DNA of 39,922 bases, from assembly GCA_015485495.1 (NCBI GenBank), contig WFTL01000063.1, positions 1 through 39,922 on the forward strand, written 5' to 3'. This document shows positions 25,167-29,489 of this stretch, piece by piece; position 1 is the first letter of the stretch, and each line of letters opens with the position of its first letter. Made by a program: the position numbers and the translations under genes. The notes beneath the pieces are model-generated. The model was not told the DNA's origin. It was given only the letters and a program-made list of their open reading frames with translations, and made no database searches. The DNA is from Planctomycetaceae bacterium. Lineage in GTDB: Bacteria; Planctomycetota; Planctomycetia; Planctomycetales; Planctomycetaceae.

Positions 25167-25294
25167 ACGGCCGGTTGCCGGAATCGGGCGGACAAAAGCA
25201 GATGCCGGAAGCGATTGCCCGGATCGGCCTGAACGGCGGAACGGAAGGACCGTGAATTCTCCCCGGGGCAGCCGTGCTGCCGTTCCGGCCATCT

Positions 25295-25322
25295 GTTACA
25301 GTGCCGGGGAAAGTGGTATTTT
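25295..25322 (+). promoter_or_regulatory. Candidate promoter for the DinB-cyclase unit
   Basis: GTTACA and TATTTT are separated by 16 nt, about 30 nt before the DinB-like ATG, followed by a purine-rich AAGGGGGG. The gap 25167-25294 also holds GC-rich inverted repeats but no gene. Confidence 0.4.
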
Positions 25323-25351
25323 TCGTTCTTCCGGTTTCCCAAGGGGGGCTC

Positions 25352-25870
25352 ATGTCAAATCGTACCGATGCCATAGCCGACGGACTGCGACTGTCGATCG
25401 CACATGCCCGTCAGCTTCTGGACGGCGTTCCGGCCGATCAGTTTGCCCGATTTGCGGCTCCTGGAGGAACGCCGATCGTATCCAATCATCCGGCGTTCAT
25501 TTACGGCCATCTGGCCCTGTACGCTCCGCGCGTCGTTGAAATGTGCGGTGGTTCTCCGGAACCGGCGCCGGAAGGCTTCGAGGCTCTGTTCGCCAACGGT
25601 GTGGAATGCGTCGATGATGTCGACGGGACCGTTTATCCGCAGCAGGATGTCATCACCGGAGCTTTTTTCGACGCGTACGATGCTGCACTGCAGGCGATTC
25701 GAAAGGCAGAGGATGCTGTTCTGGATCAGCCGAATCCCCTGGGCGGAACGCTGGTGGAACGGTTTCCCACGATCGGATCGATGTGCAGCTTCATGTCGTG
25801 CGGGCATCTGATGCTGCATCTGGGGCAGATGAGTGCCTGGCGGCGGATGCAGGGCCTTGGTCCGGCCTGA
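25352..25870 (+). CDS. DinB-like four-helix metalloprotein
   Basis: A 172-residue protein starting at the ATG after AAGGGGGG. The DinB/YfiT-like superfamily forms a four-helix bundle with three metal-binding histidines. Here H53 in HPAFIYGHLALY and H152/H156 in the C-terminal CGHLMLHLGQMSAWRRMQG fit that triad. Many relatives are thiol-dependent transferases (for example bacillithiol or mycothiol S-transferases), while others have no known activity. It should not be confused with DNA polymerase IV, which shares the name dinB. Its stop codon is 6 nt before the ATG of the FHA-GAF-cyclase, so the two are translationally close and surely co-transcribed. Confidence 0.8.
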   Translation: MSNRTDAIADGLRLSIAHARQLLDGVPADQFARFAAPGGTPIVSNHPAFIYGHLALYAPRVVEMCGGSPEPAPEGFEALFANGVECVDDVDGTVYPQQDVITGAFFDAYDAALQAIRKAEDAVLDQPNPLGGTLVERFPTIGSMCSFMSCGHLMLHLGQMSAWRRMQGLGPA

Positions 25871-25876
25871 TGCGCC

Positions 25877-27643
25877 ATGTTTCGGCTGCTTGCCTTCTAC
25901 CGGGAACGACCTCTGGATCGGCAGTTCGTGCTGTCGGCCGGGGAAACGAAGGTTCTGGGACGGTCGTCGGTGGCGGATTTCTGCACCGACTGGGACAGTC
26001 TGATTTCGCGTCGTCATGTGCGGCTGGAAGGAACACCGACCGGGCTGCGCATCGTCTGTCTGGATGAAGCGTCCAATCCCGTGTTCTTCGACGGGCGGGA
26101 GATTCGAACGGCGGAACTGAGTTCGGGACAGTCGTTCGTGATCGGCAACACACGCTTTGAGCTGCGCGATGTGGTCCTGACGGATTCGCCGGAGGATGTC
26201 CGCGGGGAACTGCGGGCGATTGACCGGAACCGACTGAAGAAGGTGCGTTACAGCGATGCCGACAGGCGGATCGAGATTCTGGCCAGTCTGCCGGACGTGA
26301 TCCGCGAATCCGGTGTGGAGCGGGATCTGAACGTCGGTCTGTGCACGCTGCTGCTTTCAGGGATTTCCGGAGCCGACGCCGTCGCCGTGGTTCGGATCGA
26401 CGATGCCGGGAACGTTGACGTTCTGCATCAGGAATGCCGCGACGACACGGCCGGGACGATTCGCCCCAGTTCGCGCATGATTCGCAGTGCGCTGGATCGC
26501 CAGAAGACGATTCTGCACGAATGGAACGATCCGGCCGCCGGCCGGACCGGCCACTACACACAGGACGCGCGGTTCAACTGGGCATTCTGCACACCGTTTT
26601 TTACGGACATTCATCGCGGCCGGGCCTTCTATGTGGCCGGCGCCGGCATGTCCATGGGCGTGCCGGCTGAGACGGAACAACGGCTGCACCCGGATATCAA
26701 ATTCACGGAATTCATCGCAGAGTTCGCCGGATCACTGCAGCGACAGCGGGTTCTGGAACGCCGGCAGGCCGGGCTGAGACAGTTTTTTTCGCCGCCGGTT
26801 CTGGAGGCCATCGGAGACGACCTGGACACGTCTCTGCTGGAACCGCGGGAATGCGATGTGGCCGTTCTGTTCTGCGATCTGCGCGGTTTCAGCAGGCGGG
26901 CAGAAGAGACCGATGATCTGCTGGGCCTGCTGGACCGGGTCAGTCTCGCGCTGGAAGTGATGACCAGGCAGATTCTGAAGTTCGGAGGCGTGACGGGTGA
27001 TTTTCAGGGCGATGCGGCTCTCGGATTCTGGGGATGGCCCATCGAATCGGAAGAAGCCCCGCTGAATGCCTGCCGGGCGGCGCTGGCCATTCGCCAGGAA
27101 TTCGCCCGAGCGAACACGGATCCCCGACACCCGCTGTACGACTTCGATACGAGCATCGGTGTGGCCTGGGGACGGGCCGTGGCCGGAAAAATCGGAACGC
27201 GGGATCAGGTGAAGGTGACCGTGTTCGGACCGGTGGTCAATCTGGCCAGCCGACTGGAAAGCATGACGCGTCTGCTGCACGTCCCGGTCCTGATCGACGA
27301 ACGTCTGGATCACCTGGTGAGAACCCGCATGGATCCGGATGAAGGACGTGTCCGACGTCTGGTGCGGCTGCAGCCATACGGCATGGACCGGCCGCTGCTG
27401 GTCAGTGAGCTGGTGCCGCCGGAGTCGGAGCTGCCGATGCTCACATCGGAGCATCTTACAGAATTCGAGCGGGGAGTGGATGCTTTTCTGGCCGGTGACT
27501 GGGAGGCCGCCTGGTCGTTTCTGCACCGCATGCCACCGGATGACCGGGCTCAGGATTTTCTTGCCATGCACATCACGCACCATCATCGCCGTCCGCCGGA
27601 TGACTGGGACGGTGTGATCCGCGGACTGTCCAAAGGAAGCTGA
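25877..27643 (+). CDS. FHA-GAF-class III nucleotidyl cyclase with atypical specificity residues
   Basis: A 588-residue cytosolic signalling protein. An N-terminal FHA domain (about 5-100; GRSS at 28-31, ISRRHVRLE at 43-51) should bind phosphothreonine. A GAF-like sensor (about 135-295) comes next, followed by a class III cyclase domain (about 322-480). Both metal-binding aspartates are present, D334 (LFCDLRGFS) and D379 (GDAALGFWG), as are the transition-state N455 and R459 (VVNLASRLES). The two residues that select adenine differ: the usual Lys four residues before D379 is D375, and the usual Asp/Thr in the GDxVN motif is P452. Substrate is therefore uncertain. The FHA domain suggests control by Ser/Thr kinases, such as the one at 33.6 kb. 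It is co-transcribed with the DinB-like gene. Confidence 0.88.
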   Translation: MFRLLAFYRERPLDRQFVLSAGETKVLGRSSVADFCTDWDSLISRRHVRLEGTPTGLRIVCLDEASNPVFFDGREIRTAELSSGQSFVIGNTRFELRDVVLTDSPEDVRGELRAIDRNRLKKVRYSDADRRIEILASLPDVIRESGVERDLNVGLCTLLLSGISGADAVAVVRIDDAGNVDVLHQECRDDTAGTIRPSSRMIRSALDRQKTILHEWNDPAAGRTGHYTQDARFNWAFCTPFFTDIHRGRAFYVAGAGMSMGVPAETEQRLHPDIKFTEFIAEFAGSLQRQRVLERRQAGLRQFFSPPVLEAIGDDLDTSLLEPRECDVAVLFCDLRGFSRRAEETDDLLGLLDRVSLALEVMTRQILKFGGVTGDFQGDAALGFWGWPIESEEAPLNACRAALAIRQEFARANTDPRHPLYDFDTSIGVAWGRAVAGKIGTRDQVKVTVFGPVVNLASRLESMTRLLHVPVLIDERLDHLVRTRMDPDEGRVRRLVRLQPYGMDRPLLVSELVPPESELPMLTSEHLTEFERGVDAFLAGDWEAAWSFLHRMPPDDRAQDFLAMHITHHHRRPPDDWDGVIRGLSKGS

Positions 27644-27711: not shown

Positions 27712-27872
27712 GCCGATTGTGCCGACTAAAACGGTGCGCTGACGGTTCAAAACATGGGGCGCGGCCGCGTCGCCACGGATGCATGTGCAAGGCTTGCAGG
27801 GCATCGGGCGCCGTTTCCGGACGGTCCGCCCCGGCTGTTCCGACGCCTTCTTCCACTGCAAAAATCGGTTCC

Positions 27873-29489
27873 GTGGTCACTTCTTCCGAGCAATTCGATG
27901 ATGCTGCGATGGCTCTGGTGGAGCATCTGTTCGGATCCGGATGGGATTTGTGGACGACCGATGCGGGACTGCGCAGAGTGCGGCAGGGGCTGACACAGGC
28001 GTCGCATCCCCATCGGTCCGTCCCGGCGGCCGTTCGCACTCAGATTGCTCAGACCGCAGCGAACGGCTGCGTGCAGTTTCGTCCGATGCAGAGTGGCTAT
28101 CTGTGCACCGTTCCTCTGACCCGCGGCGCCTGTCCCCGGGTGGCTCTGGGACGTCTGTCGCATCAGCAGGCCGCAGATCTGCTCAACACCCTGATGGACC
28201 GTCCGTTGAATCGAGCGAGCGGTCGGCCGGTGGACAACGCCCCGCTTCAGCCGATGCGTTCCGATCGGCTGGAATGGCTGGTGCGTCTGCCGGCAGACGC
28301 TTTTCCCGGACCGATGGAACAGTCGGTGCAGGAAACAGCCGCCCGGATCCTTCCCGCGCTCAGACGTCTGTTGCACGCCCGATCGGTTGTGCTGCAGGAG
28401 ATCGATGAAGATGAACCGGAGAGCGGCGGCCGGCGGTGGCGGATCGTGTGGGCGGACGGAGACGAGGTGCCGGAAGAGGTTCTGAACCGGCTGAACGAAC
28501 GGGGCGCGTCGGACAGCACGGACATCGGCGGAACCTGCATGTCCGTTCGTTCCGAGAAACGGCCGGCCGGATATTCTGACGGGATTCCGTCGGTCATTCA
28601 GGTTCCGGTCAACTGGCCGGGCCGGCTTCCGGGCCGTCTGCTGGCGGTGAACAGAGAACACCGTGTCGGGAAAGTCGATGTTTCCGGTGTCGGGGCAGGC
28701 GGTGCATCGTCTGGATTCGAAGAATTTCGGGACGAAGATCGATATCTGCTGCAGGCGGCCGCATCGGCGCTGGAAACCGGATGCGGCATTCAGAATCTGC
28801 ATGAAGATCGCCAGGAGCTGCTGACAGGAATCGTGCGCAGTCTGGTGAACGTGCTGGATGCGAAAGATTCCTACACCAGCGGACACAGTGACCGCGTGGC
28901 GGAATATGCCCGGCTTACGGCACAGCACATGGGTCTGAGCGGCGAGGAATGCGAACAGATCTGTCTGGCCGGTCTGCTCCATGACATCGGCAAGGTCGCC
29001 ATTCCCGATGACATTCTGAACAAACCGGGACGTCTGAATGAGCAGGAAACCCGGCTGGTTCAGCGTCATCCGGTGACCGGGTACGAGATTCTGAAACCCC
29101 TGAACAGTCTCAGTCGCGTTCTGCCAGGGGTGCTGCATCATCACGAATCCTGGGATGGCAGCGGATATCCTGATGGTCTGTCCGGACGTGCCATTCCGCT
29201 GCAGGCGCGGATTCTGGCGGTGGCCGATGCCTGGGATGCCATGACCAGCCGGCGTTCTTACCGCGCGGCTCTGCCTGTGTCTCAGGCCAGGCAGATCCTG
29301 CAGGACGGCGCCGGAAGGCAGTGGGATCCTGAATGTGTGGCTGCCGTGCTGCGCTGCATCGACACGAAGCGAATCCGTCTCGATGCGTCCCACCGCCGTC
29401 CGTCCCGTCCGGAATTCATTCGCCAGGCAGCCACGCGGTCCCTGCTGCGATGGCCAGGCAGCCACGCGGTACGGCTGACCGATGAATGA
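27873..29489 (+). CDS. GAF-like and HD-GYP phosphodiesterase
   Basis: HD-GYP enzymes hydrolyse cyclic di-GMP and related cyclic dinucleotides. The core is intact: HSDRVAEYARLTAQHMGL, LLHDIGKVAIPDDILNKPGRL (HD at about 370-371), HPVTGYEIL, LHHHESWDGSGYPDGL (GYP at about 431-433) and ILAVADAWDAMTSRRSYR. Before it lie about 300 residues with a GAF-like sensor (about 150-305). The start is uncertain: the GTG at 27873 gives 538 residues, and the frame is open to a TTG at 27717, but the added residues look non-coding and no site has a good Shine-Dalgarno. The C-terminus contains an 18-bp direct repeat. It follows the cyclase by 229 nt. Confidence 0.9.
   Translation: MVTSSEQFDDAAMALVEHLFGSGWDLWTTDAGLRRVRQGLTQASHPHRSVPAAVRTQIAQTAANGCVQFRPMQSGYLCTVPLTRGACPRVALGRLSHQQAADLLNTLMDRPLNRASGRPVDNAPLQPMRSDRLEWLVRLPADAFPGPMEQSVQETAARILPALRRLLHARSVVLQEIDEDEPESGGRRWRIVWADGDEVPEEVLNRLNERGASDSTDIGGTCMSVRSEKRPAGYSDGIPSVIQVPVNWPGRLPGRLLAVNREHRVGKVDVSGVGAGGASSGFEEFRDEDRYLLQAAASALETGCGIQNLHEDRQELLTGIVRSLVNVLDAKDSYTSGHSDRVAEYARLTAQHMGLSGEECEQICLAGLLHDIGKVAIPDDILNKPGRLNEQETRLVQRHPVTGYEILKPLNSLSRVLPGVLHHHESWDGSGYPDGLSGRAIPLQARILAVADAWDAMTSRRSYRAALPVSQARQILQDGAGRQWDPECVAAVLRCIDTKRIRLDASHRRPSRPEFIRQAATRSLLRWPGSHAVRLTDE
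29422..29470 (+). repeat. 18-bp direct repeat at the 3' end of the HD-GYP gene
   Basis: GCCAGGCAGCCACGCGGT occurs perfectly at 29422-29439 and 29453-29470, 31 bp apart. The two copies are read in different frames, so it is a DNA-level duplication rather than a protein repeat. It adds a short Arg-rich tail to the protein. Confidence 0.8.

Follow-up and report, generated by a model that had tools for sequence, protein, structure and literature searches.

The window, i.e. the whole stretch of 39,922 nucleotides of planctomycete DNA that was analysed, harbours a gene for a class III nucleotidyl cyclase in which, according to sequence and profile alignments, an aspartate (D375) takes the place of the base-selecting lysine of adenylate cyclases. 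The gene product is probably a signalling enzyme making a cyclic nucleotide. As far as the alignments go, the cyclase family is conserved, and the oddity of the base-selecting site reported in the initial annotation is half real (D375) and half a misalignment (P452). The family probably resembles the guanylate cyclases most, with Asp in the role of Glu, but we do not class it among the guanylate cyclases, as the window protein has Asp instead of the Glu that defines them. In the reading we favour, of which we are about half convinced, the protein would be the enzyme at the output end of a phosphorylation relay, with a homodimeric class III domain in which Asp acts as the Glu of guanylate cyclases and GTP is converted to cGMP. 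The gene and its domains are located as follows.

25877..27643, + strand: FHA-GAF-class III cyclase gene (open reading frame of 588 aa with zero internal stops)
25952..26146, + strand: FHA domain, residues 26-90 (Pfam PF00498)
26234..26746, + strand: GAF-fold region, residues 120-290 (modelled alone, pLDDT 87; structure matches)
26837..27424, + strand: class III cyclase catalytic domain, residues 321-516 (Pfam PF00211 and structure matches)

This FHA-GAF-cyclase architecture, already proposed in the initial annotation, was borne out by Pfam for the FHA and cyclase domains and by fold for the GAF domain. The PF00211 match covers residues 327-469 of the 588-aa protein (6.8e-8) and is the only one in the genome assembly the window comes from (98% complete). 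The AlphaFold2 model, with a 49-sequence family alignment as input, has a mean pLDDT of 89. Its C-terminal half matches OaPAC 8qfg (Z 22.3, rmsd 2.2, 205 aligned), CyaC 1wc1_C (Z 20.7, rmsd 2.1, 186 aligned) and Cya2 2w01_A (Z 19.7, rmsd 2.4, 193 aligned). By homology as well as by fold, the protein is a class III nucleotidyl cyclase. A scan of the 588-aa protein gave no Pfam GAF match in the middle region at 0.001. Folded alone, this piece gave Z values of about 15 with solved proteins of GAF fold (Foldseek list and structure comparison), e.g. the putative GAF sensor 5hl6_A (Z 15.4, rmsd 2.8, 147 aligned), and the modelled middle region is a GAF fold by structure, without Pfam support.

Residues were placed by HMMER alignment to CyaB and by a 25-member profile compared with Cya2 and CyaB and read out by position. 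The placement of D375, T448, S426 and Y501 refers to these sequence and profile alignments, the structure comparisons to the fold only. Conservation was counted in the query and the best 80 of 555 relatives, which had been confirmed among 585 pattern matches from a family scan of genome contigs.

26876..26878, + strand: D334, first metal Asp (codon checked; 81/81)
26999..27001, + strand: D375, acid at the base-selecting position, Lys in adenylate and Glu in guanylate cyclases (alignment; Asp in 81/81)
27011..27013, + strand: D379, second metal Asp (codon checked; 81/81)
27152..27154, + strand: S426, at the Arg of CyaB (alignment; Gly in Cya2 and in most rows of the clade described below)
27218..27220, + strand: T448, true second base-selecting residue, the canonical Thr (alignment; 81/81, inside a search pattern)
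27230..27232, + strand: P452, clade marker (alignment)
27239..27253, + strand: N455 and R459, transition-state residues (81/81 each, N455 inside a search pattern)
27377..27379, + strand: Y501, at the Lys of CyaB and Cya2 (alignment)

The search patterns of the family scan were two peptides, one of which includes positions 447-455 (448 being Thr or Gly, 452 Pro and 455 Asn), which biases the 81/81 counts obtained for these three positions. Positions 375 and 459 lie outside both peptides; with 81/81 at such a position, chance is excluded as the origin of D375.

In the alignments, D375 falls opposite the Lys of 'DKFVGD' in P. aeruginosa CyaB and opposite the Glu of 'DEFMGD' in the guanylyl cyclase Cya2. 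This confirms that it stands at the position of the adenine-selecting Lys and supports the view that ATP is no longer chosen by way of the usual Lys. Its Asp/Thr partner had been given as P452, which is a misalignment: P452 lies three residues before N455, where CyaB has Arg, and the residue that pairs with Thr in CyaB ('DYTIIG') and with Gly in Cya2 ('KYGVVG') is T448, seven residues before N455. Thus, of the canonical adenylate cyclase pair (Lys plus Asp/Thr), the Lys has become D375 and the Thr is kept. The codons of D334, D379, N455 and R459 are present as annotated, and the intact metal and transition-state residues support the earlier statement that catalysis looks possible.

The substitutions S426 and Y501 had been overlooked in the initial annotation. 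Arg and Lys position the triphosphate in the guanylate cyclase treated in the excerpted text of PMC2576301. When positions 426 and 501 are equated with this pair, an equation of our own, the window protein carries Ser and Tyr instead; the pair is not universal, Cya2 being without the Arg, too. Together with the base Lys, two further basic residues of CyaB are thus replaced, as might be expected if the protein were a catalytically dead or very weak cyclase serving as a regulatory dimer. In line with this, one paralogue in the family (L049, G058:C137) has both metal Asps replaced (by Arg and Glu) and Asp for Asn, and is likely a pseudo-cyclase. Against this, both metal Asps, the Asn and the Arg are kept in 88 of 90 rows of the clade, as expected of an active enzyme, and the window's genome has no second PF00211 match. 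We regard a dead or very weak cyclase as rather unlikely.

The clade referred to was found in a tree of 169 domains, calculated by a quick method with SH-aLRT support and no bootstrap after removal of the three trait columns; L194 (too short), L001, L192 and L257 (repeats) and identical open reading frames were left out. It comprises 90 rows (SH-aLRT 87), every one from the window's class, which we take to be Planctomycetia. Since family rows were gathered within the class by similarity to the query, the 90 rows inside and 79 outside are an uneven sample and not a census. Eleven of the 90 are second fetches of one gene, as seen by hand from the coordinates, leaving about 79 genes, 71 of them with an acid (66 Asp, 5 Glu). 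Counted by rows, position 375 is an acid in 82 cases (75 Asp, 7 Glu), never Lys, and another residue in 8; outside the clade it is Lys in 69/79. Position 452 is Pro in 71/90 clade rows and Asp in 50/79 outside rows, position 426 is Gly in 80/90 clade rows, and Lys or Arg at 501 occurs in 7/90 clade rows compared to 55 of the 61 outside rows with a residue there.

The clade splits into a group of 23 rows (support 97), mostly with the pair Asp-Gly, and a group of 67 rows (support 98) with the pairs Asp-Thr, Asp-Gly, Glu-Thr and Gly-Asp. Acid, Lys and other residues require a minimum of 12 changes on the tree. Asp and Glu are exchanged at two places in the clade, one of them near the window protein's own branch. 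Within the FHA family, Glu-Thr is found in two genomes of one genus (G030 and G061; L279, L283), and the sister group contains Glu-Gly, the pair of Cya2 (G049, G057, G064; L275-L277). A subgroup of the clade (L071, L072, L073, L286) has Gly at 375, Asp at 448 and Lys/Arg back at 501, a pattern in which base and phosphate sites are possibly coupled, but L043 and L044 have Asp at 375 together with Lys at 501.

In the other classes of the phylum, Lys was found at the 375 position in 59 of 69 class III domains and Asp in one (best match from each of 30 genomes plus 39 lower-ranking loci picked by hand); Asp is also present in L257, a 70th locus deliberately taken from the family of the window protein. 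The best matches from 30 of the 32 genomes of the window's class with a match gave 6 Lys, 18 Asp, 5 Glu and 1 Gly (30 domains including the query). The protein query matched in 54/59 relatives' genomes at E 0.001 or better, weak partial matches counted, and several of these genomes carry many paralogues.

What does an acid at this position mean for the substrate? In guanylate cyclases Glu replaces the Lys and the partner is C, S, T, H, A or G, Cya2 having Glu-Gly (excerpt of PMC4215837); an acid, Glu, at the base position with a variable second residue that may be Thr is described in the excerpt of PMC2576301, too. In the GTP-bound RhGC structure Glu contacts guanine N1/N2, and no other canonical contact to the base is formed (excerpt of PMC7384201). 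Accordingly worded, the favoured reading is that the base would be read by D375, like the Glu of guanylate cyclases, plus the ordinary Thr T448, and because of this the likeliest reaction of the putative homodimer would be GTP to cGMP. The exchange of Asp and Glu at two places, together with the absence of Lys in all 90 rows, is what would be expected if a contact between carboxylate and base were under selection, and this makes GTP the best guess. The initial annotation had considered that the product may not be cGMP. This finds no support, as published guanylate cyclases carry an acid (Glu) here and the clade exchanges Asp and Glu.

Several points count against a guanylate cyclase. The side chain of Asp is shorter than that of Glu by one carbon, and the excerpts of the literature cited here contain no characterised guanylate cyclase with Asp at the Glu position. 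S426 and Y501 replace basic residues of CyaB, whereas Cya2 keeps the Lys at 501. The position of the Cya2 Tyr, reported to raise guanylate cyclase activity (excerpt of PMC4215837), is S458 in the window protein. Furthermore, neither Asp nor Glu is present in 8/90 clade rows. Among the literature matches listed, which covered few subscription journals, there was no characterised planctomycete class III cyclase.

Nor does the presence of an acid commit a cyclase to GTP: a Ma1120 triple mutant (Glu, Gly, Tyr) was equally specific for ATP and GTP (excerpt of PMC4215837). This leads to the reading that the acid just removes the preference for adenine, so that both purine nucleotides would be used and cell conditions would set the selectivity. 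T448, a partner of the adenylate cyclase type, would fit such an enzyme, but an acid in 82/90 clade rows, seven of them with Glu, suggests selection for a particular contact, and we consider promiscuity unlikely while giving it some weight. The kept Thr partner would also suit an adenylate cyclase of non-canonical mode, in which another residue substitutes for the lost Lys. The candidate is K446, two residues before T448, which is Lys in 42/50 rows with Asp/Glu-Thr. A Lys shifted within the site had been named as an outcome that would contradict the initial annotation; K446 gives no clear restoration of the adenylate cyclase site, since Cya2, a guanylate cyclase, has Lys at 446, too, and the position is Ser or Thr in 9/81 of the nearest sequences. 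Chances for this mode appear slim.

A pyrimidine cyclase, in which the carboxylate would recognise uracil or cytosine, a task that falls to acids or other residues in Pycsar enzymes, came into consideration by a match to the PADLOC PycC models (best 4.1e-15) and by D94, named as UTP-reading in BcPycC. F332 and Q377 correspond, by our residue count from the metal Asps, to F100 and Q144 of EaPycC, two of the three residues that read CTP there (excerpt of PMC11224242), and Q377 is Gln in 71/81 of the nearest sequences. The base pocket does not agree in every residue with that of a characterised uridylate or cytidylate cyclase. By the same count, the D375 position is Arg142 in EaPycC and Ala92 in BcPycC, whose D94 falls two residues further on, at Q377; the residues of BcPycC were counted in the alignment with 7r65, where D94 lies two before the metal Asp. 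The PADLOC match is unspecific, as the paralogues L082 and L089 with the Lys-Thr pair reach 98 and 104 bits with the same model that gives 54 here. Because of Ala92 and of these higher-scoring controls the Pycsar reading was rated low. Neither PycTM nor PycTIR was found among 11 flanking genes scanned with Pfam, and presence in 54/59 relatives' genomes is unlike a patchy defence gene. We hold a pyrimidine cyclase of this kind to be very improbable.

The favoured reading places the cyclase at the end of a phosphorylation relay. G28, R29, S44, H47 and N67 are presumably the phosphothreonine-reading residues of the FHA pocket. They are largely kept across 46 sequences, the query plus the 45 nearer rows of the family (G28 and R29 46/46, S44 42/46, H47 and N67 45/46), and from these residues phosphothreonine binding is predicted. 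Clustering of the neighbours of 55 loci, the window included, gave one frequent upstream partner, a Ser/Thr kinase with membrane spans recognised by eye and a putative sensor region, for which the dCache match was below the Pfam cut-off in the kinases of two relatives scanned. With the L061 kinase as query, the kinase was found upstream on the same strand in 28/79 non-redundant loci with at least 2.4 kb of upstream sequence. A kinase was counted as adjacent if its match, on the strand of the cyclase, ended no more than 1500 bases upstream, small genes in between being ignored. In these 28 loci the match covers the kinase domain and most of the rest, and 20-546 bases separate its end from the beginning of the cyclase match; two of these loci (L067 and L068) belong to other families of the class. 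In the other 51/79 loci, among them both from the window's genus, this adjacency is missing, which counts against the relay.

The kinase query has 33 matches in the window's genome, almost all of them limited to the kinase domain or a part of it. The exception is a near full-length relative of 735 aa on another contig (G000:C44) with 45% identity over residues 34-723 of 764, the next best match covering the kinase domain only. This protein is likely the orthologue of the upstream kinase, and its location on another contig is the reason why kinase and cyclase genes seem to have been parted in the window's lineage. In the circuit proposed here, the target of the kinase would be a threonine partner or else the cyclase, the phosphothreonine would be read by the FHA domain, and the GAF domain and the following helix would pass this state on to the cyclase domain, which would thereby be activated. 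Such a path from kinase via FHA to cyclase is likely the economical reading.

In the window, the cyclase gene is surrounded by argG, two small genes without Pfam match, a downstream gene with HD domain (HD-GYP type) and a GH10-like gene; another Ser/Thr kinase is encoded about 6 kb downstream. The HD-domain gene directly downstream (27717-29489) was considered as partner phosphodiesterase and rejected, as it is no conserved neighbour in relatives: tblastn at 1e-6 found no relative of it in 100 loci, some of them short of downstream sequence. One of the small genes (25274-25870, 198 aa) ends 6 bases before the cyclase. Relatives of it (54 and 60% identity) lie directly upstream of the cyclase in both loci of the same genus, L051 and L052 (L101 repeats L052), and a 51% match was found in L167, 4.4 kb upstream on the other strand. 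The argG gene of L105 (L105:11181-12371) is 85% identical to that of the window but is found on the downstream side of the cyclase, about 2.4 kb away, and not upstream as in the window, which is a local rearrangement. A planctomycete Pycsar-like pair was observed at L094:501-1822, where a class III cyclase of 263 aa with PADLOC PycC matches precedes a protein that has a match to Pfam PycTM (8.6e-15).

None of the genome's three proteins with a cNMP-binding domain (L189, L190, L191) is evident as a cGMP receptor, the phosphate-binding Arg being absent by eye, and this counts against cGMP as the product. One could imagine that a class-wide clade reading its base by Asp and devoid of both the base-selecting Lys and the Lys at 501 makes neither cAMP nor cGMP, i.e. 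a cyclic pyrimidine or other nucleotide; the relay of kinase and FHA domain would then be the switch, and the receptor would lie outside the CRP family. We regard this combination as improbable.

Bacterial guanylate cyclases are reportedly regarded as few, to go by the title of the 2004 article of Shenoy and Visweswariah. With Asp and Glu naturally exchanged within one of its families, the planctomycete acid clade offers a natural set of variants for testing whether one carboxylate suffices for the choice of GTP and whether Asp is able to replace Glu. Furthermore, the recurrence of the kinase beside the cyclase suggests that Ser/Thr phosphorylation leads directly to cyclic nucleotides in a kinase-rich genome.

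Compared to known systems, the protein shares the class III domain and an altered base pocket with PycC of Pycsar and, by our count, Phe and Gln with the CTP-type EaPycC. It differs from PycC at the D375 position (Ala in BcPycC, Arg in EaPycC) and by the lack of an effector gene alongside. The canonical bacterial adenylate cyclases CyaB, CyaC and OaPAC have the same fold (Z 20-22), and CyaB has the metal Asps, the Asn, the Arg and the Thr partner in common with it, but carries Lys at 375 and 501 and Arg at 426 and 452. PKN2 of Myxococcus xanthus couples a Ser/Thr kinase to a cyclase-like domain with an acid (Glu) and Thr, its specificity being called unclear by its authors. In contrast to the proteins studied here it is a single fused chain with a membrane span and has Glu instead of Asp, and the excerpt of its description makes no mention of FHA or GAF (PMC1262709). 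The guanylyl cyclase Cya2 of Synechocystis (PDB 2w01) has Glu-Gly where the window protein has Asp-Thr, keeps Lys at 501 and Tyr at 458, and sits on a separate branch of the 169-domain tree, so that it is not a close relative. It shares with the window protein the class III fold, the acid at the position of the base Lys and the Lys at 446, and with the majority of the clade the Gly at 426, which is S426 in the window protein. When the cyclase profile was compared with PDB sequences, Cya2 was the top match (1.6e-22), narrowly ahead of CyaB (9.3e-22).
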